Shown here: positions 13,758 through 32,689 of the stretch, piece by piece
Layout of the letters: each line of letters starts with the position of its first letter
Numbering within the stretch: the stretch's first letter is position 1
From: Mesorhizobium loti R88b
Lineage (GTDB): Bacteria; Pseudomonadota; Alphaproteobacteria; Rhizobiales; Rhizobiaceae
DNA length: 64,000 nucleotides
Reading direction: 5' to 3'
NCBI RefSeq assembly: GCF_013170845.1
Contig: NZ_CP033367.1
Span: 5,891,001 to 5,955,000 of the forward strand
The notes under the pieces: generated by a model
Told to the model about the DNA's origin: nothing
What the model saw: only the letters and a program-made list of their open reading frames with translations
Database searches by the model: none
Translations under genes and position numbers: made by a program

Positions 13758-13857
13758 TCGGAACTCCTGGTTTCTACTTCCTTGCCTATATAACCATTTA
13801 TCCCTGCAAACCTTGGCTGCATAGCTCATTCGGTTCAGATAATTTGGAGTGTCCCGA
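13758..13857. promoter_or_regulatory. Divergent promoter region, LysR regulator / oxidoreductase
   Basis: One hundred bases, AT-rich around CCTATATAACCATTTATCC (near 13786-13804), between the starts of divergent genes. It must hold both promoters and the LysR operator. I could not identify a clear T-N11-A dyad. Confidence 0.5.
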
Positions 13858-16401: not shown

Positions 16402-16436
16402 CACCAAGCGGTATCGACCCGCCGCTCTGACGACAA

Positions 16437-16452
16437 TGATTGCCGGCAATCA
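16437..16452. terminator. Perfect 16-base palindrome between convergent genes
   Basis: TGATTGCC followed directly by GGCAATCA, overlapping the stop codon of the leftward lactonase gene. Lies between the convergent Tim44-domain and lactonase genes. No T tract, so termination is an inference. Confidence 0.45.
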
Positions 16453-17556
16453 CTGTACGATCTTGACGCACATCGGCGTGCCAACCTCAATGGCCCGGCC
16501 GGTGTCGGTCAGCAGGCCGCTTGCCGCGTCGCGGGCGAAGATCGAGATGCGGTCGGCATTCTGGTTGGCGGAGAACAAATGGCCACCGGACGGCGTCAGC
16601 GCCAGATTTCGCGGCGTCGCACCGCCACATGGGATATGGCCGACAAGGCTCAAAGCACCAGTCTCCTGATCGACCGCCATGATGACGACGCTGTCGTGGC
16701 CCCGGTTGCCGCCGTAGACAAAACGACCGTCCGGGGAAATCTGGATATCGGAGCCGTGGTTGGTCTCGCGTGCCTCTTCCGGCACTGCCGGCTTGACATC
16801 GATGAGGGAAAGCCTGCCGGTGGCTTCATCGAGCGCCATCGACACAATTGTCGAATCCAGCTCGTTCATGACAAAGACGAAGCGTCCGTTTGGGTGCAGA
16901 GCGATATGACGCGGGCCCGCGCCAGGCGGCAGTGCGGATTCCGCCAATTTCGTCAGGCTGCCATCCCGCCCGATCCGATACGACACCAGCCGGTCGATGC
17001 CAAGGTCGGCGACGATTGCCATTCCGCCGGCAATGGTTTCGGTGACGCTGTGAGCATGCGAGCGCTCCTGCCGCGCCGCGTTAGGACCAGTGCCTTTGTG
17101 AGAGACGCTGGCCACAGGCGGCGACAGTGCGCCGTCCTTGTCAAAAACATAGACCGCAACGGCCCGATCCGGACCGCCCTCCCCGGCGCCGTAGTTGGCA
17201 ACCAGAAGTTTTGTCCCGTCACGGGTGATGGTGTTGTGCGCGGTGATGCTGCCCAGCGATGGCTGCTTGTTCAGATAGCTTAGCCTGTTCGAGGCTCGAT
17301 CGAAGCCGTAGGCGGAAACCGTTCCCTCCCGCCAGGTCGACACCTCCGAATTGGCATAGAGCCGCGACCCATCCGGGGTGACCGACAGAAAAGTCGGATT
17401 GTCGACGTCGTTGGTCTCGGCCAGCTTCTGGACGGTCAGCGTTCGTTCATCGAAACTGTAGACGCCAAGACCGACACCTCGGGCGCCCTGAAAATAAGGC
17501 GCCTCCCGGTTCACGCTGCCGACAAACACCAGACAAGCATTCCAGACGCTGCGCAT
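16450..17556 (-). CDS. Lactonase family beta-propeller protein (6-phosphogluconolactonase, Pgl-type)
   Basis: 368 residues with seven-bladed propeller repeats. Recurrent blade motifs such as TPDGSRLYANSE, HPNGRFVFVMNE, SPDGRFVYGGNR and TPSGGHLFSANQ are spaced about 50 residues apart. This is the Lactonase PF10282 family, whose E. coli member hydrolyses 6-phosphogluconolactone. GGAGG lies six bases before the ATG at 17556. It is divergent from the MaoC/CoA-transferase operon, near a sugar-acid locus, and may act on a sugar lactone. Confidence 0.85.
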   Translation of the reverse strand: MRSVWNACLVFVGSVNREAPYFQGARGVGLGVYSFDERTLTVQKLAETNDVDNPTFLSVTPDGSRLYANSEVSTWREGTVSAYGFDRASNRLSYLNKQPSLGSITAHNTITRDGTKLLVANYGAGEGGPDRAVAVYVFDKDGALSPPVASVSHKGTGPNAARQERSHAHSVTETIAGGMAIVADLGIDRLVSYRIGRDGSLTKLAESALPPGAGPRHIALHPNGRFVFVMNELDSTIVSMALDEATGRLSLIDVKPAVPEEARETNHGSDIQISPDGRFVYGGNRGHDSVVIMAVDQETGALSLVGHIPCGGATPRNLALTPSGGHLFSANQNADRISIFARDAASGLLTDTGRAIEVGTPMCVKIVQ

Positions 17557-17684
17557 GATTTCCTCCCCTGCCCGCCGGCGCTTCGGCGCCTGGATTGGGC
17601 CAAAATTTCACCTGTCCTCGCTTGCAACGCAACCCCATATGTGAAAATACTATTTACAAAAGAAGATTGACAGGAGGAGACATC

Positions 17685-17759
17685 GTGCAGTCAGGCGCTA
17701 CGAGGCGTGTTCAGACGGCTGCCCGGAATATTCTGCGAGACTGCCGGAGCCAGCCATGA
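17685..17759 (+). CDS. Possible 24-residue leader ORF coupled to the MaoC gene
   Basis: GTG at 17685 is preceded by a perfect AGGAGG (17672-17677) with seven-base spacing. The frame reads [24 protein letters not shown] and ends at TGA 17757-17759, overlapping the ATG of the MaoC gene (17756) by ATGA. No homology is recognised. Either this is a translated leader peptide that couples translation into the operon, or the ribosome site is coincidental. The upstream stretch 17636-17670 is AT-rich and could hold the promoter. Confidence 0.5.
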
Positions 17760-18307
17760 ACGACTTCGCCCCCACTGTCGGCGTCGCCTCGACGTATCCC
17801 AAAAACATGCCCGAAGATCATGCCGCGTTGCCGGTGTGGAATGCCGAGAACTGGTTCTATGAGGACTGGCCGGTCGGCCAGAAAATCCGCTCGTTGCGGC
17901 GCACCATGGCAGAGGGCGATAGCCATCTGTTCAACACGCTGGTGCTGGACATTCACCCCTATGTGCAGGACCAGATGTTTGCCGAGAGCGAAGGCATTTT
18001 CGGTAAAAGGCTGATCGCCGGCGCGTTCGTCTTTTCGGCGGGGCTGGGGCTGGTCGCCACCAACTGCGTCAACGCGTTTTCCTATGGCTACGACAAGCTT
18101 CGCTTCATAAAGCCCGTCTTCATCGGCGACACGATCTATTCGATTCGCTCCAACCTCGACAAGAAGCCCCGCTACAAGGAGATGGGGCTGATCCGCGCCA
18201 GCTATGAGGTATTCAAGGGCGAAGGCGAGCTCGTTTTGTATTGCGAGCATCTGCAGACGGTGAAGTATCGCAACCCGGCCGATTACGTCGGCAAGACGGA
18301 GAAATGA
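17756..18307 (+). CDS. MaoC-like hot-dog-fold acyl dehydratase, atypical active site
   Basis: 183 residues, single hot-dog domain. [20 protein letters not shown] matches the second MaoC protein of this window (29404-29850). Canonical members use an Asp and a His (D-x4-H). Aligned to its paralogue, this protein reads LDIHPYVQD where the other reads GDFFPHHMD, so the Asp is kept but the His position is Tyr/Val. It may act on a different acyl-CoA or have shifted chemistry. GGAG lies six bases upstream; its stop overlaps the CoA-transferase start by ATGA. Confidence 0.8.
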
Positions 18308-19470
18308 GGATGCCGGCCGCAGCCGAATTGCCGCTTGCCGGCCTCACCGTCGTCGACATGAGCCAGTTCCTGTCCGGGCCCTATTGCTCGCTGAGACTGC
18401 TCGATCTCGGCGCCCGCGTCATCAAGATCGAGCGTCCGGACGGCGGCGACCTGTCGCGCCGGCTCTATCTCAGCGACACCGAGATCGGCGGCGATTCCAC
18501 CATCTTTCACGCCATCAACCGGGCCAAGGAAAGTCTTGCCATCGACCTCAAGAACGACGCCGATCTCAAGGCTTTGCGCGGACTGCTGGCCAAGGCCGAT
18601 GTGCTGATCCAGAATTTCCGGCCAGGTGTCATCGAGCGCCTCGGCCTCGACTATGAGGCGGTGCGCAAGATCAACCCACGCCTCGTCTATGCGTCGATCA
18701 GCGGCTACGGCGAAGAGGGCCCATGGGTCAAGCGGCCCGGCCAGGACCTTCTGGCGCAGTCGCGCTCGGGCGTGATGTGGCTGAATGGCGACGAGGACCA
18801 GGGGCCGGTGCCGTTCGGGCTGGCCATCGGCGACATGCTGGCGGGTGCGGCCTGCGCGCAAGGCATTCTGGCGGCGCTCGTGCGGCGCGGCATCACCGCC
18901 CAAGGCAGCCATATCGAGACCAGCCTTTTGGAAGCGCTGATCGATTTCCAGTTCGAGGTGCTGACGACGCATCTCAACGATGGCCGACGCTTGCCCAGGC
19001 GCTCCAGCTTCCGCAGCGCACATGCCTATCTCTCCGCGCCTTACGGCGTCTATCCGGCCAATGACGGCTATCTCGCCATCGCCATGACGCCGATCCCCAA
19101 ACTCGCCGACCTGCTGTCGCTCAGCGAGCTGGCGCCTTATCGCGACAAACCGGCATCGTGGTTCACCGCGCGCGACGACATCAAGGCGATCATCGCGCAG
19201 AGGATTGCGACGAAAACCATCGACGAGTGGCTGGCCATTCTGGAGCCCGCCGACATCTGGTGCGCCAAGGTGCTGACCTGGCCGGAGATGCTGGCCAGCG
19301 AAGGCTTTCAGTCGCTCGACATGCTGCAGACGGTGACGCGGGAAGATGACGTCTCGATCCTCACCACGAGTTCGCCGCTGAGGGTCGATGGCATCAGAGC
19401 CAAGGTCGATCGGGCGGCACCGCGCATCGGCGAACACAGTGCCGCGATCCGCGCGGAGTTCGGCCTGTGA
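18304..19470 (+). CDS. Class III CoA-transferase (CaiB/BaiF family)
   Basis: 388 residues. The N-terminal [20 protein letters not shown] and [15 protein letters not shown] are signatures of family III CoA-transferases, which move CoA between carboxylic acids through a catalytic Asp. The usual catalytic region with GxGxE-like [10 protein letters not shown] is present. The start at 18304 forms ATGA with the MaoC stop, giving strong coupling; a second ATG two codons later is possible. With MaoC it suggests activation of a carboxylic acid to its CoA ester and hydration or dehydration. Confidence 0.87.
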
Positions 19471-20630
19471 CTACGCTCAAAGGCATGACCTGGACCCATC
19501 CGCGCGGCTACGATCCGATCGTCGCCTGCTCGTCCTTCTGGCAGCAGAAGACCGGCGTCGCCATCGAATGGGACAAGCGCTCGTTGCAGGATTTTGAATC
19601 CTTCCCGGTCGAGGAACTGGCGCGCGCCTACGACCTCATCGTCATCGACCATCCGCATGTCGGCCAGATCACGGCCGAACGTTGCCTCGCGCCGCTGGAT
19701 GTTGCCGGCCGCGAGGCGGAGCGCGCAGCCCTTGCCTCGGGCAGCGTCGGCCAGTCCTATCCGAGCTATAACTGGCAAGGGCAGCAATGGGCTTTCCCGA
19801 TCGATGCGGCCAGCCAAGTTTTGGCGTGGCGCCCAGATGCGCTAGAGACACCGCCGGCACGCTGGAGCGATGTGCTCGATCTCGCCCGCCAAGGGCGCGT
19901 GCTGTTGCCGTTGCTGCCGCCTCACTCGTTGATGGTGTTCTACACACTGGCCGGTAATTTTGGTCATCCCTGCGCCACCGATCCGTGCCGCGATCTCATC
20001 GATGCCGACGCCGGCAGAGGAGTCTTCGAGATGATGAGCGAGATCGCGGCATTGGTCGACCCGGCGTGTTTCGAGATGGACCCGATCGCGGTTTCGGAGC
20101 GTATGGCGGAGGCCAGTTCCCGGATCGTCTGCGCGCCGCTGATCTATGGCTATGTCTCCTATGCGATATCAGGATTTCGCGCGCACCGGCTGGCCTTCGC
20201 CGACATCCCGATCGCCGGCTCCAACGGCCCGATCGGTTCGGCGCTCGGTGGCACCGGCATAGCGGTGTCGGCCTTTTCCAAAGCCAGAGAAGCGGCGATC
20301 GATTTTGCCTACTGGGTCGCCAACGGCGATATCCAGCGCGGTCCTTATGCCGCCGCCGGCGGACAGCCCGGCCATGCGGCGGCCTGGGAAGACCAGGCGG
20401 TCAATGAAGCGACCGGCAATTTCTATCGCAACACGCGCGCGACGCTGGATGGCGCATGGGTGCGGCCGCGCCATGACGGCTACATGGCGTTCCAGCAGGC
20501 GGCGTCCGACCGCATAATTTCAGGCATGACCTCCGGGCATAAAGCCGCAGAGGTGGTTGCCGATCTCAATCACCTGTTCCAGGAGAGTTCTCCCACACAG
20601 GTGTCCGGCGCTGCCGGTGGAGGAGCCTGA
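19467..20630 (+). CDS. Extracellular solute-binding-protein homologue lacking a signal peptide
   Basis: 387 residues related to family 1 sugar-type binding proteins (ARAYDLIVIDHPHVGQI, then QWAFPIDAASQVLAWRPDAL). No signal peptide is visible: the start [17 protein letters not shown] is polar, and the GTG at 19467 is fixed by a GTGA overlap with the CoA-transferase stop. A start at ATG 19485 would not add a leader either. The product should therefore be cytoplasmic, unlike its family. It might be a sensor or a repurposed binding protein. After its stop a strong GGAGGAG (20644-20650) precedes no gene, as if a former downstream gene was lost. Confidence 0.7.
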   Translation: MTTLKGMTWTHPRGYDPIVACSSFWQQKTGVAIEWDKRSLQDFESFPVEELARAYDLIVIDHPHVGQITAERCLAPLDVAGREAERAALASGSVGQSYPSYNWQGQQWAFPIDAASQVLAWRPDALETPPARWSDVLDLARQGRVLLPLLPPHSLMVFYTLAGNFGHPCATDPCRDLIDADAGRGVFEMMSEIAALVDPACFEMDPIAVSERMAEASSRIVCAPLIYGYVSYAISGFRAHRLAFADIPIAGSNGPIGSALGGTGIAVSAFSKAREAAIDFAYWVANGDIQRGPYAAAGGQPGHAAAWEDQAVNEATGNFYRNTRATLDGAWVRPRHDGYMAFQQAASDRIISGMTSGHKAAEVVADLNHLFQESSPTQVSGAAGGGA

Positions 20631-20695
20631 ACGAAACCGAATGGAGGAGAAACTTCCGCAGGCCACGCCGCGGCGAGACGCTGATGCAAATCCAA

Positions 20696-21535
20696 CTATT
20701 TCAGCCGCCACAGCTTGCGGGCATTGCCAGACAACAAGCCCTCGCGCTCCTCTGCGCTACAGCCTGAAAGCAGCGCATGGGTCGCCGCCACCCAGGTCGA
20801 GAGGCCGCCGCCGAGCGTGCAGACCGGCCAGTCGCTGCCCCAGACGACACGGTCCCAGCCGAACGCAGCGATTGAGTGTTCGACATAGGGTCGTAGTGTC
20901 TCGACCGTCCAGTTGCCGGCATCGGCGTAAGCGACGACACCGGAAATCTTGGCGATCACATTTGGGCGCCGGGCGATCTCGCTCATGTGCTCGCGCCAAG
21001 GGTGTTCGTCATTGCCCTTAATGTCGGGCACGCCGCAATGGTCAAGGACGAACTGAACGTCGGGCGCCAGGTCTGCAAGCGCGATCGCCTTGGGGATCTG
21101 GTGCGGCAGCACGACGAGATCAAAGGTCAGGCCGGTGCCGCCGAGGCGCTTGATGTTGTCACGAAACAGCGCACTTTCCGAGAGATCGTCCGGCACAACG
21201 TGGAGCACGCGGCGGAAGCCTTTGACGAAAGGGTTGGTCTGTTGGCGTTCGAGATAGGCGGCGAAATCAGCCTCTTCCGGCCGGCAGGATGCGATCACAC
21301 CAGCCAGCATGCTGCCGGGTTGCCGCGACAATCCTTCGACACGAGCTGTCTCGGCTTCGATGTCGGCAGGATCGACATCGACCTCCATATGCAGCACGCG
21401 CTCAACGCCGACACGCCGCGCCTCGGTGGCATATTCCTCATAGGAGAAATCGCGGTTGAGCGCTGGCACGCCGGTTAGCCAGGGATAGCGCAAGGCAGAG
21501 CGATCGATGAGATGTAGATGAGTGTCGATGATCAT
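20696..21535 (-). CDS. Amidohydrolase family TIM-barrel hydrolase (possible sugar lactonase)
   Basis: 279 residues of the amidohydrolase-2 family. Metal ligands appear as H6 and H8 in IDTHLHLID, a His in VLDHCGVPD and an Asp in VVWGSDWPV. Relatives include L-fucono-1,5-lactonase and other lactonases that feed sugar acids to enolase-superfamily dehydratases. A strong GGAGGAGG precedes the ATG. It lies directly downstream of the IclR gene on the same strand and next to the sugar operon, which supports a lactone-opening role; this is an inference. Confidence 0.8.
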   Translation of the reverse strand: MIIDTHLHLIDRSALRYPWLTGVPALNRDFSYEEYATEARRVGVERVLHMEVDVDPADIEAETARVEGLSRQPGSMLAGVIASCRPEEADFAAYLERQQTNPFVKGFRRVLHVVPDDLSESALFRDNIKRLGGTGLTFDLVVLPHQIPKAIALADLAPDVQFVLDHCGVPDIKGNDEHPWREHMSEIARRPNVIAKISGVVAYADAGNWTVETLRPYVEHSIAAFGWDRVVWGSDWPVCTLGGGLSTWVAATHALLSGCSAEEREGLLSGNARKLWRLK

Positions 21536-21600
21536 GGCGAGGCTCCTCCTCCGGCTTTTTCAAATCATCTCACGGAGGAATTCTTCATTCAAATAAGAAT

Positions 21601-22386
21601 TTATGCCGATGAACCGACAGTCGAGCCTGCCAGGTGCGACAGCTTCTCGCACGTTGCCAGCAACAGCTCGATGGTCCGAGTTATGTCGGGTGCGGCAGGC
21701 GTGTTGATGACGGTGATGTAGGGGATCGACAGCGCGGCGATCGCCTTGCCATCGGAACTGCGCACCGGTGCCGAGAGATTGAAGACGCCGGCGGTCTGCA
21801 TCGAGGCCATCATCTCATAGCCGCGGTCGCGGATCTGGTCGAGCCGGGTGAAGAACTCCGCCGACTGCGGCGTCTTGTCGGTGCTGCGGACGTATTCGGA
21901 AATCATCATCTGCCGCTCTTCCTGCGAGCGGAAGGCGAGCAGCACATGGCCAGATCCGGTGTCGAACAGGCTGATGTGCGAGCCGACCCGGATCGAGATT
22001 CCCCAATAGTCCGGCGCCTCCTGCTGGGCGATGACGACGGCGGAACCGCGATCAAAAACAACGAGTTGGTTGGCCTGCTGCGAGGTCTCGGCCAGTTCCC
22101 GCATCAGCGGCGTTGCATAGGAGACCAGCCGCCGCACCGGAGCGTGCAGTTGCGCAAGGCCGAACAGTTTCAGCGTCAGCGAGTAGCGGTCGCCGTCGAG
22201 CCGCGTGACATAGCCGCGTCGCACCAGCCGGTCGAGCATGCGGTAGAATTCATTGGGGCTGCGGTCGAGTTTCTTGGCGATTTCGGCCTGGGTAAGGCCA
22301 CCGTCGACGCCCGCCAGTAGCTCAAGGATGTCGAGCCCCTTGTCGAGCGCCGGCGCGCGGTAGCGCTCGTCTTCGCTGTCATCCAT
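21601..22386 (-). CDS. IclR family transcriptional regulator
   Basis: 261 residues. The winged helix-turn-helix (ALDKGLDILELLAGVDGGLT, then DRSPNEFYRMLDRLVRRGYV) and the C-terminal GAF-like IclR effector domain are clear. The ATG at 22386 has GGAG nine bases upstream; an open frame from 22644 only reads across the shared promoter and into the divergent gene. It is divergent from the sugar ABC operon, so it is the likely repressor or activator of that operon. Confidence 0.87.
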   Translation of the reverse strand: MDDSEDERYRAPALDKGLDILELLAGVDGGLTQAEIAKKLDRSPNEFYRMLDRLVRRGYVTRLDGDRYSLTLKLFGLAQLHAPVRRLVSYATPLMRELAETSQQANQLVVFDRGSAVVIAQQEAPDYWGISIRVGSHISLFDTGSGHVLLAFRSQEERQMMISEYVRSTDKTPQSAEFFTRLDQIRDRGYEMMASMQTAGVFNLSAPVRSSDGKAIAALSIPYITVINTPAAPDITRTIELLLATCEKLSHLAGSTVGSSA

Positions 22387-22413
22387 GGGCCATCTCTCCA
22401 GTGAATTCTGCCC

Positions 22414-22493
22414 TTCATATACGCAGGAACGCAGCCGGCGGAAACAAATTTCGCCTTGACGTATCCATGAATGTTTTGTTTGTATATGAATGT
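22414..22493. promoter_or_regulatory. Probable IclR operator/promoter region of the sugar operon
   Basis: Within the 169-base divergent gap, TTCATATAC (22414-22422) and GTATATGAA (22482-22490) form an exact nine-base inverted pair. ATGAATGT occurs twice, at 22467-22474 and 22486-22493, 19 bases apart, that is near two helical turns. TTGACG at 22457-22462 could be a -35 for the rightward operon, with TGTATA near 22481 as a weak -10. Assignment to IclR rests on position. Confidence 0.55.
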
Positions 22494-22555
22494 AGCACTT
22501 CTTGTCATCAGACGAGTTGCGGTCGCCTGCCAAGGCGCACCAAGGGAGGATACCA

Positions 22556-23875
22556 ATGAACAGACTGCTTTCCGGCGTGTCCGCCGGCGCATTGTTGCTT
22601 GCATTCGGTGCAGGCACGGCCCTTGCCGGCGACCTGCCCGGCAAGTTCGAAGGCGTGACCGTCGACGTGAAACTGATCGGCGGCCAACAATATGAAAAGC
22701 TCTACGAGCGCATTCCCGAATGGGAGAAGGCGACCGGCGCCAAGGTCAACATCCTGACCAAGAAAAATGGCTTCGACATCGACAAGGAGCTCAAGTCCGA
22801 CATCGCTTCGGGCAGCACCAACTGGTGCGTCGGCTGGAACCATTCGTCGTTCGCGCCGCAATACACCGGCCTCTACACCGACCTCAGCAAATTGCTGCCC
22901 AAGGAAGAGATCGACGCCTTCGTGCCGTCGACGATCAAGGCCGCGACCATCGACGGCAAGCTGGAAATGCTGCCGCGCGCGCAGTTCGACGTCTCGGCGC
23001 TCTACTACCAGAAGAGCCTCTACGAGAACGCCGACAACAAGACCAAGTTCAAGGCGAAATACGGCTATGACCTGGTGCCGCCGGACACCTGGAAGGAAGT
23101 CACCGACCAGGCCGAGTTCTTCGCCAACCCACCCAATTTCTACGGAACGCAGTTCGCCGGCAAGGAAGAGGCGATCAACGGCCGTTTCTACGAAATGGTG
23201 GTCGCCGAGGGTGGCGAGTATCTCGACAAGGACGGCAAGCCCGTCTTCAACTCCGAGGCCGGCATCCGGGCACTCGACTGGTTCGTCAACCTCTACAAGG
23301 CCAAGGCCGTGCCGGCCGGAACCACCAATTACCTCTGGGACGATCTCGGCCAAGGCTTTGCTTCGGGGACCGTCGCCATAAACCTCGACTGGCCGGGCTG
23401 GGCCGGCTTCTTCAACGATCCGAAGTCGTCGAAGGTCGCGGGCAATGTCGGCGTGAAAGTCGCGCCGAAGGGTTCTTCCGGCAAGCGCACCGGCTGGTCC
23501 GGCTTCCACGGCTTCTCGGTGACCGAGAACTGCCCGAACAAGGAGGCTGCTGCTTCACTCGTCTGGTGGCTGACCAATGAGGACAGCCAGAAGCTCGAGG
23601 CCGCCGCGGGCCCGCTGCCGACCCGCACCGCGGTCTGGGATTGGGATCTGAAGCAGGCCGAAAACGATCCTTACAAGAAGGAGGTTCTCTCCGCCTTCCA
23701 GGAAGAAGCCAAGCACGCCTTCGCCGTGCCGCAGACGCCTGAATGGATCGAAATCTCGAACGCCGTCTATCCAGAACTGCAGGCGGCGATCCTTGGCGAC
23801 AAGACCTCGAAGCAGGCACTGGACGAAGCCGCCGCCAAGGCGACGCAGATCCTCCAGGACGCCGGCAAGCTCTAA
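22556..23875 (+). CDS. Sugar ABC transporter substrate-binding protein
   Basis: 439 residues. A Sec signal peptide covers about the first 23 residues (LLSGVSAGALLLAFGAGTAL, cleavage after ALA). The mature protein is a family 1 (maltose-type) binding protein. The ATG at 22556 is fixed by GGGAGGA seven bases upstream. It is the first gene of the operon, before two permeases, an ATPase and catabolic enzymes. The ligand is probably a sugar or sugar derivative, given the mutarotase and dehydratase; which sugar is unknown. Confidence 0.88.
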   Translation: MNRLLSGVSAGALLLAFGAGTALAGDLPGKFEGVTVDVKLIGGQQYEKLYERIPEWEKATGAKVNILTKKNGFDIDKELKSDIASGSTNWCVGWNHSSFAPQYTGLYTDLSKLLPKEEIDAFVPSTIKAATIDGKLEMLPRAQFDVSALYYQKSLYENADNKTKFKAKYGYDLVPPDTWKEVTDQAEFFANPPNFYGTQFAGKEEAINGRFYEMVVAEGGEYLDKDGKPVFNSEAGIRALDWFVNLYKAKAVPAGTTNYLWDDLGQGFASGTVAINLDWPGWAGFFNDPKSSKVAGNVGVKVAPKGSSGKRTGWSGFHGFSVTENCPNKEAAASLVWWLTNEDSQKLEAAAGPLPTRTAVWDWDLKQAENDPYKKEVLSAFQEEAKHAFAVPQTPEWIEISNAVYPELQAAILGDKTSKQALDEAAAKATQILQDAGKL

Positions 23876-23892
23876 CCAGCGCTCGCAAGGCT

Positions 23893-23918
23893 GCCTCCCC
23901 CATCATGATGGGGGAGGC
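23893..23918. repeat. Perfect 26-base palindrome between binding-protein and permease genes
   Basis: GCCTCCCCCATCA (23893-23905) is followed directly by its exact reverse complement (23906-23918). It lies 17 bases after the binding-protein stop, before the permease start at 24013. In RNA it forms a strong hairpin. By analogy with the malE-malF spacer it could stabilise the upstream message or reduce read-through, giving more binding protein than permease. It may also be one of the RIME-like repeats of rhizobia. Confidence 0.8.
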
Positions 23919-24012
23919 GATCGCGGCTTGCCGGTGCGGACCCGAGCCTTACCCCAGCTAGGGCTCCACGAACGGGCGGCTGACACTTGGACGCAAACCC
24001 CAAAGGACTCTG

Positions 24013-24909
24013 ATGAAGGGCTTCAAGCCATCGGCGCCGTTCCTGCTGCTGCTTCCGGCCTTCATCGTGCTGGCGGCGGTTGTCGTCGTGCCGCTGCTGC
24101 TCTCGCTCTATTCCAGCTTCACGCCCTTCCGTCTGACCAAGCCCGAGACATTCTATGTCGTCATCGGCTTCCGGAATTATCTGTCGATCCTGGCCAACAC
24201 CGATTTCTGGTGGGCTTTCGGCCGCACGGTTCTGCTGCTGACCATCGCGCTCAATCTCGAAATGCTGCTTGGCCTTGGTCTTGCCATGCTGGTCGAGAAG
24301 GCAACGCGCGGCCAACGCATCCTGCGCACGCTGATGATGTTTCCGATGATGTTCTCGCCGATCCTCGTCGGCTTCCAGTTCAAGTTCATGTTCAACGACA
24401 ATATCGGCCTGGTGAACAACGCGCTGCAGTCGCTAGGGCTCACGCAGGACGCCATTCCGTGGCTGATCGAGGGCCATCTCGCCTTCATCGCCATTTCGAT
24501 CGCCGAGATCTGGTCGTCTACGGCGATCTTCGCCATCCTGATCCTCGCCGGCCTGCTCGCCATGCCCAAGGAGCCGATCGAGGCCGCACGCGTCGATGGC
24601 TGTACGCCGTGGCAGACATTCCGCTATGTGACGTGGCCGTTCGTCATGCCCTTCGCCTACATCGCCATGACCATCCGCTCGCTCGACGTCGCGCGCGCCT
24701 ATGACATCGTCAAGATCATGACCGATGGCGGGCCGGCCGGGCGTACGGAGCTTCTGTGGACGCTGGTGGCGCGCACCGCCTACAGCGACGGACGTATGGG
24801 CATGGCCAACGCCATGGCCTATTTCTCGATCCTGCTGTCGATCGCCTTCACCGTCTATTTCTTCAACAAGCTCGCCGCGGCGCGCACGCAGATCGGTGCG
24901 GAGTGGTGA
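24013..24909 (+). CDS. Sugar ABC transporter permease (MalF/UgpA type)
   Basis: 298 residues with six or so membrane spans, starting at PFLLLLPAFIVLAAVVVV. The EAA loop that contacts the ATPase is EAARVDGCTPWQTFRYVTWP. AAGGA lies eight bases before the ATG. Its stop overlaps the next permease start (TGATG at 24907-24911). Confidence 0.9.
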   Translation: MKGFKPSAPFLLLLPAFIVLAAVVVVPLLLSLYSSFTPFRLTKPETFYVVIGFRNYLSILANTDFWWAFGRTVLLLTIALNLEMLLGLGLAMLVEKATRGQRILRTLMMFPMMFSPILVGFQFKFMFNDNIGLVNNALQSLGLTQDAIPWLIEGHLAFIAISIAEIWSSTAIFAILILAGLLAMPKEPIEAARVDGCTPWQTFRYVTWPFVMPFAYIAMTIRSLDVARAYDIVKIMTDGGPAGRTELLWTLVARTAYSDGRMGMANAMAYFSILLSIAFTVYFFNKLAAARTQIGAEW

Positions 24910-25775
24910 TGGACGAGAATTCTTCCGCCCGCCTGAAGCGCCGGCTGCTCGGCATCGTCTATCGCATCGGCCTGTTCCTGGCGATGCTGACCATCTGCCT
25001 GCCGGGCCTGTGGATCGTCATTTCGTCACTGCGGCCGACCGTCGAGATCATGGCCAAGCCGCCGGTGTGGATCCCGCAGGAGATCTCGTTCGACGCCTAT
25101 GTCTCGATGTTCTCAGGCATCGGCAAGGGCGGCATCCCGGTCATCGAATATTTCCGCAACTCGCTGATCATCTCGGTGACCTCGACGGTGATCGCGGTCG
25201 CCATCGGCATGGCCGGCGGTTATGCCTTCGCGCGCTATCGCTTCCGTGGCAAATCGAGCGTCTTCCTCGGCCTGATGCTGACGCGCACGGTGCCCGGCAT
25301 AGCGCTGTCGCTGCCGCTGTTCTTCCTCTATGTGCGGCTCGGCATCATCGACACGCATTTCGGGCTGATCCTGGCCTATGTCGCGCTCAACGTGCCGTTC
25401 ACCATCTGGCTGATCGACGGCTTCTTCCGTCAGGTGCCGAAAGACCTTGCCGAAGCCGCGCAGATCGACGGCTGCACGCGCTGGCAGGCGTTCTGGCAGG
25501 TCGAGTTCCCGCTTGCCGGGCCAGGCATCGCGTCGGCCGCGATCTTCGCCTTCCTGACCTGCTGGAACGAATTCGCGCTGGCCTCGCAACTGACGCGTTC
25601 GGTCAGCGCCAAGACGCTGCCGGTCGGCCTGCTCGACTACACCGCCGAATTCACCATCGACTGGCGCGGCATGTGTGCCCTGGCGGTGGTGATGATCATC
25701 CCGGCGCTGACCCTCACCTTCATTGTCCAGAAACACCTTGTCGGCGGCCTGACCTCCGGCGCGGTGAAAGGCTGA
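24909..25775 (+). CDS. Sugar ABC transporter permease (MalG/UgpE type)
   Basis: 288 residues. The first span is GLFLAMLTICLPGLWIVISS and the EAA loop is EAAQIDGCTRWQAFWQVEFP. It pairs with the upstream MalF-type subunit. The start at ATG 24909 overlaps the previous stop; an apparent longer frame lies inside the previous gene. It is followed after four bases by the ATPase gene. Confidence 0.9.
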   Translation: MDENSSARLKRRLLGIVYRIGLFLAMLTICLPGLWIVISSLRPTVEIMAKPPVWIPQEISFDAYVSMFSGIGKGGIPVIEYFRNSLIISVTSTVIAVAIGMAGGYAFARYRFRGKSSVFLGLMLTRTVPGIALSLPLFFLYVRLGIIDTHFGLILAYVALNVPFTIWLIDGFFRQVPKDLAEAAQIDGCTRWQAFWQVEFPLAGPGIASAAIFAFLTCWNEFALASQLTRSVSAKTLPVGLLDYTAEFTIDWRGMCALAVVMIIPALTLTFIVQKHLVGGLTSGAVKG

Positions 25776-25779
25776 TCCC

Positions 25780-26877
25780 ATGGCAACGGTTTCCCTCAAA
25801 AAACTGACCAAACGCTATGGCAATATCGGGATCGTGCATGGCATCGATCTCGACATTGCCGACCGCGAATTCATCGCCCTGGTCGGCCCGTCGGGCTGCG
25901 GCAAGTCGACGACTTTGCGCATGATCGCCGGGCTGGAAGAGATCAGCGCCGGCTCGATCGAGATCGGCGGGCGCATCGTCAACGATCTGCCGCCGCGCTC
26001 GCGCAACATCTCGATGGTGTTCCAGTCCTACGCGCTTTATCCGCACATGACGGTACGCGAAAACCTCGGCTTCTCGTTGAAGATCGCCGGTGCCGCCAAG
26101 GAAGATATGGACCGCCGCGTCGCCGAAGCGTCGGCCATTCTGGGCCTCGACACGCTGCTCGACCGCCGCCCGTCGCAACTCTCCGGCGGCCAGCGCCAGC
26201 GCGTCGCCATGGGCCGCGCCATCGTGCGCGATCCCGACGTGTTCCTGTTCGATGAGCCGCTTTCGAATCTCGACGCCAAGCTCAGAACGCAGATGCGCAC
26301 CGAGATTAAGAAGCTGCATGCCAAGGTGCAGTCGACGGTGATCTACGTCACCCACGACCAGGTCGAGGCGATGACGCTGGCAGACCGCATCGTCATCATG
26401 CGCGACGGCCACATCGAACAGGTCGGCACGCCCGACGAGGTTTTTCGGCGGCCGGCGACACGCTTCGTTGCCGGCTTCATCGGCTCGCCGCCGATGAATT
26501 TGCATGAGGCGACGATAGACGACGGCCAGATGGTCTTTTCCAGCGGCGAGAAATTGCCCCTGCCCGGGCAGTTCAAAGCCAATGTCGCGACCGGCGACAA
26601 GGTCGTGTTCGGGCTGCGGCCGGATGACATCTATCCGGCTGGCCACGGCATCAGTTCCGGCGGAGCGGCCGACGTCCATGAGATCGAGCTGCCGGTTACC
26701 GTCACCGAACCCCTCGGCAACGAGACGCTGGTGTTCGTCGAGTTCAACGGCACGGATTGGGTATCGCGCATGCTGAATCCACGACCGCTTAGATCGGGCG
26801 AGCGGGTCGCCATGAGCCTCGACATGTCGCAGGCGCATCTGTTTGCCACCGACACCGGAAAGACATTGCGGAGCTGA
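25780..26877 (+). CDS. Sugar ABC transporter ATP-binding protein (UgpC/MalK type)
   Basis: 365 residues. Walker A GPSGCGKST, signature LSGGQRQRVAMGRAI, Walker B VFLFDEPLSNLD and switch VTHDQVEAMTLAD are intact. The C-terminal TOBE/OB domain typical of MalK-type ATPases follows (VVFGLRPDDIYP). It completes the transporter and can be shared among several family 1 importers. Confidence 0.92.
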   Translation: MATVSLKKLTKRYGNIGIVHGIDLDIADREFIALVGPSGCGKSTTLRMIAGLEEISAGSIEIGGRIVNDLPPRSRNISMVFQSYALYPHMTVRENLGFSLKIAGAAKEDMDRRVAEASAILGLDTLLDRRPSQLSGGQRQRVAMGRAIVRDPDVFLFDEPLSNLDAKLRTQMRTEIKKLHAKVQSTVIYVTHDQVEAMTLADRIVIMRDGHIEQVGTPDEVFRRPATRFVAGFIGSPPMNLHEATIDDGQMVFSSGEKLPLPGQFKANVATGDKVVFGLRPDDIYPAGHGISSGGAADVHEIELPVTVTEPLGNETLVFVEFNGTDWVSRMLNPRPLRSGERVAMSLDMSQAHLFATDTGKTLRS

Positions 26878-26882
26878 CCGAC

Positions 26883-28004
26883 ATGGCCAAGATCGAAAAG
26901 ATAGAACTGCGGATGGTGGACCTTGTGCCCAAGGTCAAGCGCACCGATGCCATCCAGAGTTTCGTCAGCCAGGAAACGCCGATCGTCACCATCACCGATT
27001 CCGACGGCGCGGTCGGCACCGGCTACAGCTACACGATCGGCACTGGCGGCTCGTCGGTCATGCGGCTTTTGTCGGACCATCTGGTGCCGCGCCTGATCGG
27101 CCGCGACCCCGACATGATCGAGGCGATCTGGCACGATCTCGAATTCGCCACGCATGCCACCACGATCGGTGCGATCACCGCCATCGCCATCGCCGCGATC
27201 GACACCGCACTTTGGGATCTCAGGGCGAAGAAGCAGAACCTGCCGCTGTGGAAACTGGCCGGCGGCGCCAAGGATCGCTGCCCGCTCTACACGACCGAGG
27301 GCGGCTGGCTGCATATCGAGACGCAGGCGCTGGTCGACGATGCGCTCGCGGCCAAGGCCGAGGGCTTTCGCGGCTCGAAGGTGAAGATCGGCAGGCCGCA
27401 TGGGTCGGAGGATCTGGCGCGGCTGTCGGCGGTGCGCAAGGCTGTCGGTGACGGCTACGAGATCATGACCGACGCCAATCAGGGGTTTTCGGTCGACGAG
27501 GCGATCCGGCGCGCGGCAAGGCTGCGCGAGCTCGACCTCGCCTGGATCGAGGAGCCGCTGCCGGCCGACGACATCGACGGGCACATCAGGCTGTCCAACT
27601 CGACGCCGACGCCGATCGCCATCGGCGAGTCGCTCTATTCCATCCGCCATTTTCGCGAATACATGCAAAAAGGCGCCTGCTCGATCGTGCAGGTCGATGT
27701 CGGCCGCATCGGCGGCATCACGCCTTGGCTCAAGATCGCCCATGCGGCTGAGGCCTTCGACATTCCGGTCTGCCCGCATTTCCTGATGGAACTGCATGTC
27801 AGCCTGACCTGCGCTGTTCAGAACGGCCGATATGTCGAGTACATTCCGCAACTCGATGCGTTGACCGGCAAGCACATGCGCATCGAGGATGGGCATGCGC
27901 TTGCGCCAAACGAGCCCGGCCTCGGCATCGATTGGGACTGGGACGCGGTCAAGGCCATGAGCATCGCCGAATTCACCACGGCGATCACCAAACAGGGGAA
28001 CTGA
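26883..28004 (+). CDS. Mandelate racemase/muconate lactonizing enzyme family dehydratase
   Basis: 373 residues of the enolase superfamily. The mandelate-racemase subgroup catalytic set is present: K166 and K168 in GSKVKIG, metal ligands D197 (TDANQ), E223 (IEEP) and E249 (IGES), and the D272/H299 dyad (VDVGRIGG, CPHF). Such enzymes dehydrate sugar acids (fuconate, rhamnonate, galactarate and so on) to 2-keto-3-deoxy acids, or racemise. With a mutarotase and a dehydrogenase in the operon, a sugar-acid dehydratase is the best call; the substrate is open. Confidence 0.85.
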   Translation: MAKIEKIELRMVDLVPKVKRTDAIQSFVSQETPIVTITDSDGAVGTGYSYTIGTGGSSVMRLLSDHLVPRLIGRDPDMIEAIWHDLEFATHATTIGAITAIAIAAIDTALWDLRAKKQNLPLWKLAGGAKDRCPLYTTEGGWLHIETQALVDDALAAKAEGFRGSKVKIGRPHGSEDLARLSAVRKAVGDGYEIMTDANQGFSVDEAIRRAARLRELDLAWIEEPLPADDIDGHIRLSNSTPTPIAIGESLYSIRHFREYMQKGACSIVQVDVGRIGGITPWLKIAHAAEAFDIPVCPHFLMELHVSLTCAVQNGRYVEYIPQLDALTGKHMRIEDGHALAPNEPGLGIDWDWDAVKAMSIAEFTTAITKQGN

Positions 28005-28005
28005 T

Positions 28006-28335
28006 ATGCAGCGGATGGGGATGATTCTCGGGCTGAAGCCTGAAAAGGTGGCGGAGTATGTCCGCCTCCATGCCGCCGTCTGGCCGGACGTGCTGACCAT
28101 GATCTCGGCCTGCAACATCAAGAATTATTCGATCTATCTGAAGCGGCCCGAGAACCTGTTGTTTTCCACCTTCGAATACCACGGCACCGACTATGCGGCC
28201 GACATGGCCAAGATGGCTGCCGACCCCAGGACGCAGGAATGGTGGGCTGTCTGCATGCCATGCCAGGAGCCGCTGGCGACCCGCAAGGAGGGCGAATGGT
28301 GGGCTGACATGGACGAAGTCTTCCATCATGACTGA
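28006..28335 (+). CDS. L-rhamnose mutarotase family protein
   Basis: 109 residues, the usual length of RhaM. The family signature RLHAAVWPDVLTMISACNIK contains H22, the position of the catalytic His in E. coli RhaM. The Trp pair in TQEWWAVCMP and the C-terminal [15 protein letters not shown] also match. It interconverts sugar anomers, likely of a 6-deoxy or related sugar brought in by this transporter. It begins one base after the dehydratase stop and overlaps the next gene by eight bases. Confidence 0.85.
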   Translation: MQRMGMILGLKPEKVAEYVRLHAAVWPDVLTMISACNIKNYSIYLKRPENLLFSTFEYHGTDYAADMAKMAADPRTQEWWAVCMPCQEPLATRKEGEWWADMDEVFHHD

Positions 28336-29404
28336 GGGCGGTTTCGACCCTAGCTCGCTCATCCAGTCCTGGCCCAGACCCTCGAAGCCTCGGCCGATCG
28401 TCACTTTCGGCGCCGGGTCGATCGTCGGCGACGCGCATTTCCCGGCCTACCGGAAGGCAGGGTTTCCGGTTGCCGGTCTCTATGATCCGGACGAGGCCAA
28501 GGCACGGACACTGGCCGAGACATGGGGCGTGACGGCATTCCGCTCGGTCGACGAAGCCACAGCCGTCAAGGATGCGATCTTCGATCTGGCGACGCCGCCG
28601 GGACGGCACGCCCAAATCCTGAGAGCCTTGCCCGATGGTTCGGTCGCACTGATCCAGAAACCGATGGGTAACTACCTCGGCGAGGCGACCGAGATCCTCG
28701 AAATCTGCCGCGCCAAAGAGCTCAAGGCGGCCGTGAATTTCCAGCTCCGCTTTGCGCCGATGATGCTGGCGCTCAAGGACGCCATCGCCAAGGGCTGGCT
28801 GGGCGAAGTTGTCGACTTCGACGCCTGGCTGGCGCTGGCGACGCCATGGGAGCTGTGGGAGTTCCTGCTCAAGGCACCGCGTGTCGAGATCGCCATGCAC
28901 TCGATCCACTATATCGACCTCATCCGGCAGTTGCTTGGCGACCCCAAGGGCATCCACGCCAAGACGCTTGGCCATCCCAACCACAAGGTTGCGCAGACGC
29001 GCACCAGCGCCATTCTCGACTATGGCGACACGGTGCGCTGCGCGCTGTCGATCAACCACGACCACAAATTCGGCCGCCGGCACCAGGCCTGCGAGTTCCG
29101 CATCTGCGGCACAGAGGGTGCTGCCTATCTCAAGCTCGGCCTCAACCTTGACTATCCCCGGGGTGAGCCGGATATTCTGGAAATCTATCCGAAGGGCGGG
29201 ACAGACTGGATTACCGTGCCGCTCGCGGGCGAATGGTTCCCTGACGCCTTCGTCGGGCGCATGGCGAATGTGCAGCGCTTTGCTTCGGGCGAAGACGATG
29301 CGTTGATCAGTTCGGTTGAGGACGCCTGGAGCACCATGGCGCTGGTCGAAGCAGCCTATCGTTCGAGTGCGGCACCAGCGACGCCGATCGCGGAAAGACC
29401 CTGA
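28328..29404 (+). CDS. Gfo/Idh/MocA family NAD(P)-dependent oxidoreductase
   Basis: 358 residues. The Rossmann motif is [15 protein letters not shown] near residue 27, and the family's EKP motif appears as QKP with K111 conserved (LIQKPMGNY). The C-terminal Gfo/Idh sheet domain follows. It would oxidise a sugar to its lactone or keto form. The ATG at 28328 overlaps the mutarotase gene by eight bases; the frame extends further upstream only as a shadow of that gene. Confidence 0.85.
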
Positions 29405-29850
29405 TGGAACAGATCACCTATTTCGAGGATTACGAGATCGGCTCGTCGCGACTGACCAGCGGCCGCACCATCACCGAGACCGACTTTATCGTCCATGCCG
29501 GGCACACCGGCGACTTCTTTCCGCACCATATGGATGCCGAGTACATGAAGACGACGCCGTTCGGCCAGCGCATCGCGCATGGCACGCTGGTGTTCTCGGT
29601 CGGCATCGGGCTGACGGCAAGCATCGTCAACCCCGTCGCCTTTTCCTACGGCTACGATCGGCTGCGCTTCATCGCGCCGGTGTTCATCGGCGACACGATC
29701 CGCACGCGCACCACCATCACGGCCAAGGAGGACGATCCCAAGCGACCGGGTTCAGGACGGGTGATCGAGCGCTGCGAAGTCATCAATCAGCGCAATGAGG
29801 TGGTGCTGGCGGCCGACCACATCTACATCGTCGAACGCAAGCCGGCCTGA
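29404..29850 (+). CDS. MaoC-like acyl dehydratase, canonical active site
   Basis: 148 residues, single hot-dog domain. The D-x4-H dyad is present in [13 protein letters not shown], followed by [38 protein letters not shown] is nearly the same as in the MaoC gene at 17756, so the two are paralogues 11 kb apart. Its ATG overlaps the oxidoreductase stop (TGATG), placing it firmly in the sugar operon. A CoA-ester hydratase at the end of a sugar-acid pathway is unusual; a non-CoA dehydratase role is possible. Confidence 0.85.
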
Positions 29851-29861
29851 GGCAGTGTCTG

Positions 29862-30659
29862 CTACGCGCCGGTGGCGCGCTTGGTGATACGCTCCAGCCC
29901 AAGCAGCAGGACCAGCGTCGCCGCCACCAGCATCATGGTGAGTGCGGCGCCGGCAAAGATGTCGCCACGGTCGGTGAGGCTGAAGATCGACACCGGCAGC
30001 GTCACCCAGCCCGGTGGATAAACCATGACGGTGGCGCCGAGTTCGCCCATGGACAGCGCGAAGCTCAGGCCGAAAGCGGCGACCAGATAGGGTGCGAGCA
30101 GCGGCAGCGTGACGTGCCAGAGCCGGTAGGTGGGCCGCGCGCCGAGGCTCGACGCCACTTGCTCGAAGTCGGGCGACTGACGTGCCAGGCCAGCCGAGAC
30201 ATTGCCGAAGGTGAAGGCCGAAATCAGCACGAAATGCGCGATCATGACAATCGCGATCGTGCCGTTGAGTAGCAGCGGCGGATGGCTGAAGGCGACCAGC
30301 AAGCCGAGGCCGACAGACACCGAAGGCACCGCGCTGGGGATGAAGAACAGCAGGCCCAGCAGCCGCTTCAAGGCAGGCCCTTGAAGGCGCAGCGACAAGG
30401 CCGCCCAGGTGCCGCTGACCAGCGCCAGCGCGCTGGCCAGGAAGCCAGTGATCAGGCTCGACTTGACCGAGTTCCACGCCGCCCCGCGCACGACATCGGT
30501 GTAGTGCTCCGTCGTCAAACCATTGGGCAGCACGCCGTTCCACTGATCGGCAAGGCTGGACAACAGTATGACCGCCAGCGGCGCCAGGAACAGCACACCG
30601 AAGATCAGCGCGAACAGCACCCACAACGCGATGCGACCAGGGCGCGACCAGACCAGCAT
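29862..30659 (-). CDS. phnV: 2-aminoethylphosphonate ABC transporter permease PhnV
   Basis: 265 residues with about six membrane spans (first: IALWVLFALIFGVLFLAPLA). It contains an EAA-like loop in FEQVASSLGARPTYRLWHVT. It is the last gene of the leftward phnSTUV unit and starts two bases after phnU. A small hairpin (CGCGCC-GGT-GGCGCG, 29865-29879) lies at its end, facing the convergent sugar operon 11 bases away. The name rests on cluster context and resemblance to the AEP transporter. Confidence 0.8.
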   Translation of the reverse strand: MLVWSRPGRIALWVLFALIFGVLFLAPLAVILLSSLADQWNGVLPNGLTTEHYTDVVRGAAWNSVKSSLITGFLASALALVSGTWAALSLRLQGPALKRLLGLLFFIPSAVPSVSVGLGLLVAFSHPPLLLNGTIAIVMIAHFVLISAFTFGNVSAGLARQSPDFEQVASSLGARPTYRLWHVTLPLLAPYLVAAFGLSFALSMGELGATVMVYPPGWVTLPVSIFSLTDRGDIFAGAALTMMLVAATLVLLLGLERITKRATGA

Positions 30660-30661
30660 GG

Positions 30662-31519
30662 CTAGACTCCCAACCGGCCGGCGGCGAAACGGTAAAGGCC
30701 GAACAGGCCGAGCGACAGCGCGATGTTGACCACGGCGATGATGCAGGCGACCTGATAGGCCGATTCCTGGATCGCCTTGCCATAGATCAGCAGCGGCAGC
30801 GTGATGACGCCCTTGGCGCCGATGAACAGCACGATGCCGAATTCATTGACGGTCAAAAGCAGGCAGAGGCTGCCGCCGGCGATGAGTGCCGGAATTGCGG
30901 CGGGCAGGATGACCTGACGGACGATGCGGAACGGGCGCGCGCCAAGCACGCTTGCGGCTTCGATCTGGCCGCGATCGACCAGCGAAAACGCGGCAAGCAA
31001 CGGCCGCAGGATGAAGGGCGTGTAGACGGTGACCTCGGCCAGCACCACACCCCAGGTCGAATAGAGGAAATCGACCGGCGGCAGCGGCAGCGAGAAGGTC
31101 TCCATCAAGCTGGCATTGAGCATGCCGGCCGAGCCGTAGAGGAAGGTGAAGGCGAGCGTCACCAGGAAGGTCGGCAACGCGATGAACGTGTCGATCAGCC
31201 GGGCGATGAAACCGCTGCCAGGGAACGGCACAAAGGCAAGGATGAGCGCCAGCACGAGGCCGACGATCAGGCATCCGGCCGTGGCGGAAACCGAGATCGT
31301 CACCGTGTTGATCAGCGCGTTGAGGAAGAAGCGCGAATGCAGGACGCGGATGATCTCGGCGGCATTGGCGACGCCGCTGTCGTCGAGGAAGGCCTGCCGG
31401 GCAATCAGCGCCAGCGGATAGAAGAACAGCAGCGCCAGCAGGGCCGCCGGCGGCACGATCCAGAATTTGCCGGGTTCCCGTCTGATCGCCGGCGCGCGAA
31501 GTGCGACCGCCTCAGACAC
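30662..31519 (-). CDS. phnU: 2-aminoethylphosphonate ABC transporter permease PhnU
   Basis: 285 residues, first span near WIVPPAALLALLFFYPLAL, and the loop IEAASVLGARPFRIVRQVIL. I place the start at GTG 31519 (VSEAVALRAP), which overlaps the ATPase stop by eight bases; the frame is open further upstream but only inside phnT. It forms the channel with PhnV. Confidence 0.8.
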   Translation of the reverse strand: MSEAVALRAPAIRREPGKFWIVPPAALLALLFFYPLALIARQAFLDDSGVANAAEIIRVLHSRFFLNALINTVTISVSATAGCLIVGLVLALILAFVPFPGSGFIARLIDTFIALPTFLVTLAFTFLYGSAGMLNASLMETFSLPLPPVDFLYSTWGVVLAEVTVYTPFILRPLLAAFSLVDRGQIEAASVLGARPFRIVRQVILPAAIPALIAGGSLCLLLTVNEFGIVLFIGAKGVITLPLLIYGKAIQESAYQVACIIAVVNIALSLGLFGLYRFAAGRLGV

Positions 31520-32657: not shown

Positions 32658-32689
32658 GGCTTGGTCCTCCGGATTTCTGTCCTCGGGTG

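Follow-up and report, generated by a model that had tools for sequence, protein, structure and literature searches.

A recurring set of CoA-transferase, hydratase and leaderless solute-binding protein in a Mesorhizobium loti sugar locus suggests processing of a sugar acid bound to coenzyme A

Non-phosphorylative sugar pathways are known to work by free-acid chemistry, using dedicated dehydratases. The carnitine system of Escherichia coli combines a coenzyme A (CoA) transferase, CaiB, with a crotonase, CaiD; a thioester is hydrated and the CoA is passed on. Here we analyze a sugar locus of Mesorhizobium loti R88b, within a window of 64,000 nucleotides (NZ_CP033367.1, a single contig of 7.2 Mb, positions 5,891,001 to 5,955,000). 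Its genes form three units. The first contains MaoC1, CaiB and SBP2 (plus strand), the second an IclR regulator and an amidohydrolase (minus strand). The third consists of SBP1, two permeases, an ATPase, Eno, RhaM, Gfo and MaoC2 (plus strand). Neighboring genes show several overlaps of a few bases. More precisely, we focus on CaiB, a hydratase (MaoC2) and a solute-binding protein (SBP) without a leader (SBP2). This three-gene set recurs in other bacteria, which suggests that a sugar acid is processed while bound to CoA.

The non-phosphorylative L-fucose pathway known as route 3 runs through FucM, FucA, FucB, FucC, FucF and FucG, as given in the excerpted text of PMC11199699. Similarly, the genome of the window encodes a mutarotase, a lactonase-like protein, and candidates for an L-2-keto-3-deoxyfuconate (L-KDF) dehydrogenase and a diketo-acid hydrolase. 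In Sinorhizobium meliloti, Pararhizobium and Roseibium, an SDR, an FAH-family protein and the L-fuconate dehydratase FucD adjoin the cluster, directly behind MaoC2. However, the window's genome has no FucC/FucD orthologue, and its dehydrogenase is of the Gfo/Idh type. It also adds CaiB, SBP2, MaoC1, MaoC2 and another enolase-type dehydratase. With the carnitine system, the locus shares the two enzyme types, and the handing on of CoA is proposed here by analogy. The differences are another substrate, a MaoC in place of the crotonase, and the added leaderless SBP. In Klebsiella michiganensis, deoxyribonate has been proposed as a CoA-bound sugar acid, with a CoA-transferase in the cluster (PMC6365646, excerpted text). 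This is the likeness to our locus. On the other hand, that excerpt proposes a CoA-synthetase, a dehydrogenase and a thiolase, and it names no MaoC, crotonase or SBP. Finally, SBP2 belongs by sequence to the fold family of the ABC-importer SBPs (PF13416/PF01547). Unlike them, it is leaderless, has many invariant residues, and is tied to CaiB genes and to no particular importer. Searches aimed at the CaiB-SBP2-hydratase set in an open-licence library, which lacks most subscription journals, gave no description of it in the titles and excerpts read.

We searched 398 genomes of the phylum with SBP2 only. Eighteen of them carry SBP2 (E <= 1e-25), with 22 matches. Fifteen matches were opened, leaving out the window's own and six of the same genus. 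Ten more were opened among 145 matching plasmid records, hand-picked for diversity from 60 listed. A CaiB homologue is present on the same strand in all 25 loci. It lies within 100 bp of SBP2 in 21 loci and at 0.9 kb in one; the other three are considered below. The CaiB-SBP2-hydratase set spans Pseudomonadota, Actinomycetota (a Streptomyces locus) and Bacteroidota (a Persicobacter locus), and the transporters and sugar enzymes flanking the pair vary between loci. In S. meliloti, about 9 kb separate the pair from the amidohydrolase downstream. Some loci are repeated: L089, L126 and L141 hold one gene, and L006 and L088 another.

SBP2 shows no recognizable export signal in the window, where neither an in-frame start farther upstream nor a leader-like stretch is found. 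We tested 28 SBP2 genes from their furthest in-frame start, with the SBP1 leader as a control. In eighteen, any in-frame start lies at most 4 residues ahead of the aligned start. The other ten allow extensions of 9-87 residues, all below the hydrophobicity of the SBP1 leader (the highest, in L145, is 1.53 vs 2.03). Relatives of SBP2 are numerous, with 3,753 at E <= 0.001 among 8,000 candidates scored; the leader was checked in the 28 genes. In 17 divergent sequences, with identity down to 35%, 36 columns are invariant, and Arg13, Asp61, His62, Asp113 and Arg333 are among the invariant residues. The SBP2 profile aligns with SBP1 only in the C-terminal third (probability 59%).

SBP2 would be a cytosolic, SBP-fold partner of CaiB, with the acid or its thioester as its ligand. 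Alternatively, it could be a sensor or store of the sugar acid, or a misplaced part of a transporter, tied to CaiB by nothing but a common operon. We regard this as improbable. The GTG start of SBP2 overlaps the stop codon of CaiB by 4 bases in the window, and the pairing with CaiB is found across three phyla and next to varied transporters. A second leaderless family, SBP3, also argues against it. SBP3 is distantly related to the exported SBP1, and it accompanies a second CaiB in four of the six clusters with two CaiB genes (L137, L138, L154 and L156; not L144 or L145). So, CoA-transferases appear to have acquired leaderless SBPs on at least two occasions.

An enoyl-CoA-hydratase-type gene, either MaoC or crotonase, is present in 24 of the 25 stretches opened via SBP2. 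The first set has one in all 15 loci (MaoC in 7, crotonase in 7, both in 1). In the second set, it is in view in 9 of 10, and the tenth (S. meliloti CP140921) has MaoC2 at 18 kb from SBP2. As a background, the window's genome contains 7 MaoC and 12 crotonase genes in 7.2 Mb, that is, a chance of about 5% per 20 kb. Both glutamates that we take to be catalytic are kept in the 9 crotonases aligned, of 12. Two unrelated folds for enoyl-CoA (de)hydration thus alternate, which points to a transferase whose thioester product has either a beta-hydroxyl or a double bond. This alternation is the best evidence for such a product of CaiB. The first-pass annotation of the window had suggested that a late intermediate is handled as a CoA ester or by a non-canonical dehydratase. 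The CoA-ester step appears strengthened by the pairing of CaiB with SBP2 and by the alternation of hydratases across phyla.

A recurrent crotonase-type cluster was observed in L142, L153, L158 and L159, with the order Gfo, TIM barrel, DUF4432, SDR, CaiB, SBP2 and enoyl-CoA hydratase. Only L142 and L153 among them have a long FAH-family protein. Sinorhizobium medicae is an example of a species with a crotonase set. In Methylobacterium nodulans (L155, 8327-12723), the MaoC, CoA-transferase, SBP2 and an AMP-binding protein adjoin PdxA and a four-carbon acid sugar kinase, a hint of a C4 sugar acid.

MaoC2 has the motif D-F-F-P-H-H intact. Its Asp and the His five residues on, presumably the catalytic pair, are also kept in the relatives. 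Its score with PDB 4ffu is 277 bits, and the residues printed for that entry agree with the S. meliloti MaoC2. MaoC1 presents D-I-H-P-Y-V, so the Asp is retained and Val replaces the His. All 82 readable matches carry the same replacement, D[IH]HPYV (at least 60% identity; some are one gene in several loci), and five other matches end before the motif. The two proteins are paralogues, as first annotated, with about 35-40% identity and both above the Pfam cut-off. However, with the His lost in MaoC1, the two MaoC enzymes first described are probably one enzyme, MaoC2, and an altered paralogue.

We also drew 151 genomes from the family of the window, Rhizobiaceae. MaoC2 is present in 29 of 29 genomes with CaiB, and CaiB in 29 of 31 with MaoC2 (Fisher p 5e-29, uncorrected for kinship). 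Both genes are within 17 kb on one contig in 26 of these 29 genomes. Likewise, the 18 genomes with MaoC1 all have MaoC2.

The best PDB match of CaiB is a formyl-CoA transferase, 10uh (217 bits). Its motif GDMLAG includes the putative catalytic Asp177, a role that we assume. With the L-carnitine CoA-transferase model NF002914, it scores 90.7 bits, far under the cut-off of 413.

We propose that CaiB, SBP2 and MaoC2 would act as a single functional module. The substrate, an L-fucose-like sugar or a derivative of fucose, would be imported by the SBP1 transporter, mutarotated by RhaM and oxidized by Gfo/Idh. The lactone would be opened by the amidohydrolase or by Lac7, and the acid brought to the 2-keto-3-deoxy level. 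CaiB would load CoA onto a sugar-derived hydroxy acid. Then MaoC2, or the crotonase elsewhere, would catalyze the beta-(de)hydration of the thioester, with water taken off or added at C2-C3, and CaiB would hand the CoA to the next acid, like CaiB/CaiD with carnitine. The likeliest form would be a CoA-cycling aldonate dehydratase: aldonate to aldonyl-CoA, to 2-keto-3-deoxyaldonyl-CoA, followed by exchange. Elimination from aldonyl-CoA would give a 2-keto-3-deoxy acyl group, in line with the presence of the L-KDF enzymes. Whether a carnitine-dehydratase-like CoA cycle acts on a sugar acid here, with the transferase accompanied by an SBP-fold partner, is in our estimate evenly balanced.

MaoC2 might also work without CoA. 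In this case, it would eliminate from a 3-keto sugar made by Gfo/Idh, and CaiB and SBP2 would serve another step. The genes of Gfo and MaoC2 share one base in the window and adjoin in several other loci, and Gfo is distant from characterized enzymes. Nevertheless, crotonase, a CoA-dependent fold, replaces MaoC in other CaiB-SBP2 clusters, and MaoC2 accompanies CaiB in all 29 CaiB-bearing genomes of the family draw. We give this possibility little weight.

A CoA-dependent dehydration should be compared with the other dehydratases in these loci. We surveyed 27 loci, with flanks of mostly about 10 kb, using Eno, FucD, IlvD, GarD and UxuA as queries. Thirteen have none of these five types in view, although L135 and L151 carry FucD farther on. 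The loci with none in view fit the CoA-dependent dehydration. The configuration at C3 might also explain which hydratase is present. L-fuconate is R at C3 and D-mannonate is 3S (from a Fischer projection by hand only), and MaoC hydratases require the R configuration. Thus, 3R L-fuconate matches the R-specific MaoC, and 3S D-mannonate matches the clusters with UxuA, which carry crotonase. A general, undescribed branch of sugar catabolism might be envisaged from this, in at least three phyla. Sugar acids would be dehydrated as CoA thioesters; a class III transferase with an acid-binding, cytosolic SBP-fold partner would pass a catalytic CoA from acid to acid, and the C3 stereochemistry would select the hydratase. 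The 3R acids L-fuconate, L-rhamnonate and D-arabinonate would go to MaoC, and the 3S acids D-gluconate, D-mannonate, D-galactonate and D-xylonate to crotonase. This joint proposal is tentative, and we consider it rather doubtful.

The first-pass reading of the locus, an oxidative breakdown of sugar to a 2-keto-3-deoxy acid, is supported. All the genes it named were found where it placed them. The locus resembles a non-phosphorylative cluster of the L-fucose type. The link with L-fucose comes from RhaM, from the amidohydrolase match to 4dlf, from the KDF enzymes in the genome, and from neighboring alpha-L-fucosidases. The nearest PDB entry of RhaM, by sequence only, is the L-fucose mutarotase 7byu (164 bits), and the next family, 1x8d, has 37 bits. 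With the NCBIfam L-rhamnose mutarotase model, RhaM scores 48 bits, under the cut-off of 99.6. The amidohydrolase has 57 bits with its nearest PDB entry, 4dlf, which we take to be an L-fuconolactonase, and 108 bits with NF052480, under its cut-off of 400. The alpha-L-fucosidases are beside the Persicobacter and Croceibacterium sets. The nearest PDB entry of Eno is 5xd7, a 3,6-anhydro-L-galactonate cycloisomerase (253 bits). Finally, Gfo/Idh, a candidate for the L-fucose 1-dehydrogenase, has no close solved relative, and its best PDB match is 45 bits.

The first-pass annotation also noted that no aldolase, 2-keto-3-deoxygluconate kinase or diketo hydrolase follows. This is correct locally, and the next gene is on the opposite strand. 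However, its argument for novelty from these missing enzymes was rejected after a whole-genome check. An SDR-FAH pair is present in the same genome at 832 kb of contig C1, about 5 Mb from the locus. These proteins have 77% (SDR) and 81% (FAH) identity to the pair behind MaoC2 in S. meliloti. Shinella has the SDR and FucD without FAH, and Thalassospira shows none of the three in view. The nearest solved relatives of the SDR are 8xwk and 8y11 (297 bits), named in the PDB only as SDR family oxidoreductase. We assume that these entries are the L-KDF dehydrogenase described in PMC11199699. The SDR keeps all four substrate residues, R-T-R-R, of table 5 in that excerpted source (our mapping, with the numbering shifted by four). 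The nearest PDB entry of the FAH protein is 8gsr, an L-2,4-diketo-3-deoxyrhamnonate hydrolase (319 bits). So, the pathway need not be truncated. Its genes may be scattered over the genome, and this pair would provide the final steps. No FucD orthologue was found in the genome at E <= 1e-100; the best match (33%) is the Eno of the window.

Several observations weigh against the proposed CoA cycle. In the survey of 27 loci, 14, as well as the window, carry an enolase-type or other dehydratase, and some also FucD. In those loci, a CoA-dependent aldonate dehydratase would be redundant. CaiB matches 7 NCBIfam CoA-transferase models and reaches the cut-off of none, which leaves it without a substrate subfamily. 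It is 6.4 kb away from SBP2 in three loci. The hydratase background rate comes from one genome, and the family statistics carry no correction for relatedness. On pSymB of S. meliloti, MaoC1 (L099/L100, 15001-15552) follows a TRAP transporter and precedes a LacI regulator, a long way from the other cluster genes. The footprinted promoter blocks of the two plus-strand units differ, and no common operator was found. A relative of the FAH protein, at the level used, is present in 135 of the 151 family genomes, so the SDR-FAH pair, lying at such a distance, does not necessarily belong to this locus and may serve another sugar. For the same reason, FAH-family counts were dropped as a pathway marker. 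In S. meliloti, L-fucose has a transporter of its own (PMC3454389, excerpted text). In addition, FucD occurs in 32 of the 120 family genomes without MaoC2 and is missing in 8 of the 31 with it, so the breakdown of plain L-fucose does not require the module. This distribution and the separate transporter make plain L-fucose a poor candidate. A fucose derivative or a configurational relative is the more likely substrate.

These same data bear on an explanation without any CoA ester in the sugar chain. The locus would be an ordinary L-fucose-type non-phosphorylative cluster, and its CoA genes would have a side task. They could remove or degrade a (hydroxy)acyl decoration of the sugar, or recycle a small hydroxy acid from the hydrolase step. 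The cluster owns a CUT1 transporter, and such transporters often serve decorated sugars or glycosides. Moreover, the enolase and FucD already provide the dehydration in several relatives, and the genomes with FucD and without the module point the same way. Conversely, among the annotated clusters opened, no esterase, thiolase or acyl-CoA dehydrogenase has a recurring position. Single occurrences were seen: a thioesterase and a thiolase upstream in L157, a sialate O-acetylesterase in L161, and, in L098, an isovaleryl-CoA dehydrogenase that comes after the S. meliloti cluster. In addition, the same CaiB-SBP2-hydratase set is found with very different sugar enzymes. We consider this explanation unlikely.

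The conservation of the cluster was analyzed in 80 relative loci. They were fetched with CaiB as the query; the presence of CaiB is by construction, and they count as pairing evidence for SBP2 only. The gene order is the same in the 80 relatives as far as the stretches extend, and the differences are whole cassettes. This arrangement is conserved beyond chance. SBP2 is present in 79 of 79 relatives whose stretch covers more than 2.5 kb downstream, and the amidohydrolase and IclR in 75 of 75 covering more than 9.5 kb. Among the 74 relatives with upstream flanks above 3 kb, 70 retain MaoC1 and 39 retain Lac7. MaoC2 is in view in 5 of 75, being past the end of the stretch in most. Six loci (L025, L048, L049, L050, L061 and L066) have no SBP1 transporter ahead of the enzymes, and four of them also lack MaoC1. 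In L061, a Mesorhizobium relative, Eno is absent and the remainder is kept, which we count in favor of the CoA cycle. So, transport, MaoC1 and even Eno may be absent, while CaiB, SBP2, RhaM and Gfo persist.

The table shows the features of the locus. We assigned the start codon of IclR using the relatives and the sequence, and that of the second permease is our choice. SBP1 has 80% identity to its S. meliloti orthologue, and the annotated beta-propeller lactonase of the Persicobacter cluster has 26% to Lac7. The MaoC1 promoter block contains an imperfect inverted repeat, TGTGAA-N7-TTcACA, with one half imperfect in the window. A shared operator of the MaoC1 and SBP1 units was rejected, since palindrome and k-mer searches were empty.

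Features of the locus in the window and of SBP3 genes in other loci
Feature	Position	Strand	Description
Lac7	16450-17556	-	beta-propeller lactonase-like protein; divergent from MaoC1; possible second lactonase
Promoter/operator block before MaoC1	17621-17664	+	conserved; CTTGCA ... CATATGTGAAaAT..T.TT.ACA; footprint of 22 sequences including the window
MaoC1	17756-18307	+	hot-dog protein; PF01575 44.9 bits (cut-off 27)
CaiB	18304-19470	+	class III CoA-transferase; PF02515 337 bits (cut-off 23.3)
SBP2	19467-20630	+	leaderless solute-binding-protein fold; PF13416 49 bits (cut-off 27)
Amidohydrolase	20696-21535	-	L-fucono-lactonase-like; PF04909 208 bits
IclR	21601-22386	-	IclR-family regulator; PF01614 and PF09339 above cut-off
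Divergent promoter block (SBP1/IclR)	22414-22490		conserved; TTCATATACGCA and TTTGTATATGAA (inverted copies), CTTGAC; footprint of 19 sequences including the window
SBP1	22556-23875	+	exported CUT1-type solute-binding protein; signal peptide (hydrophobic leader)
Permease	24013-24909	+	sugar ABC permease; 80% identity to annotated orthologues
Permease	24906-25775	+	sugar ABC permease; 82-83% identity to annotated orthologues
ATPase	25780-26877	+	UgpC-type ABC ATPase; 75-77% identity to annotated orthologues
Eno	26883-28004	+	enolase-superfamily sugar-acid dehydratase; NF047820 296 bits (under cut-off 500)
RhaM	28006-28335	+	RhaM family, L-fucose mutarotase-like; PF05336 117 bits
Gfo	28328-29404	+	Gfo/Idh/MocA dehydrogenase; PF01408 45 bits
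MaoC2	29404-29850	+	(R)-enoyl-CoA-hydratase-like; PF01575 79.6 bits (cut-off 27)
SBP3 (L137)	15984-17165		
SBP3 (L138)	15767-16930		
SBP3 (L154)	13445-14674		
SBP3 (L156)	3426-4610		

In 33 of 78 relatives, SBP2 and the amidohydrolase are separated by a gap of over 3 kb, and in the window (20630-20696) this gap has only 65 bp. In the five loci with genes listed, all five large gaps are filled by a ribose-type (CUT2) ABC transporter. The sequence of the window near 20630-20696 resembles the start of the binding-protein gene of this transporter, which may have been lost there. Directly behind MaoC2, on the minus strand (29862-33721), two permeases, an ATPase and a binding protein form a candidate iron/thiamine-type ABC importer, judged by eye.

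If the proposed CoA cycle is true and widespread, non-phosphorylative sugar catabolism would gain a CoA-dependent variant with its own enzyme system. Many proteins now labelled as sugar transport or extracellular solute-binding would have a cytosolic role. Finally, it would be relevant to carbon use in root-nodule bacteria and in marine degraders of fucosylated polysaccharides.

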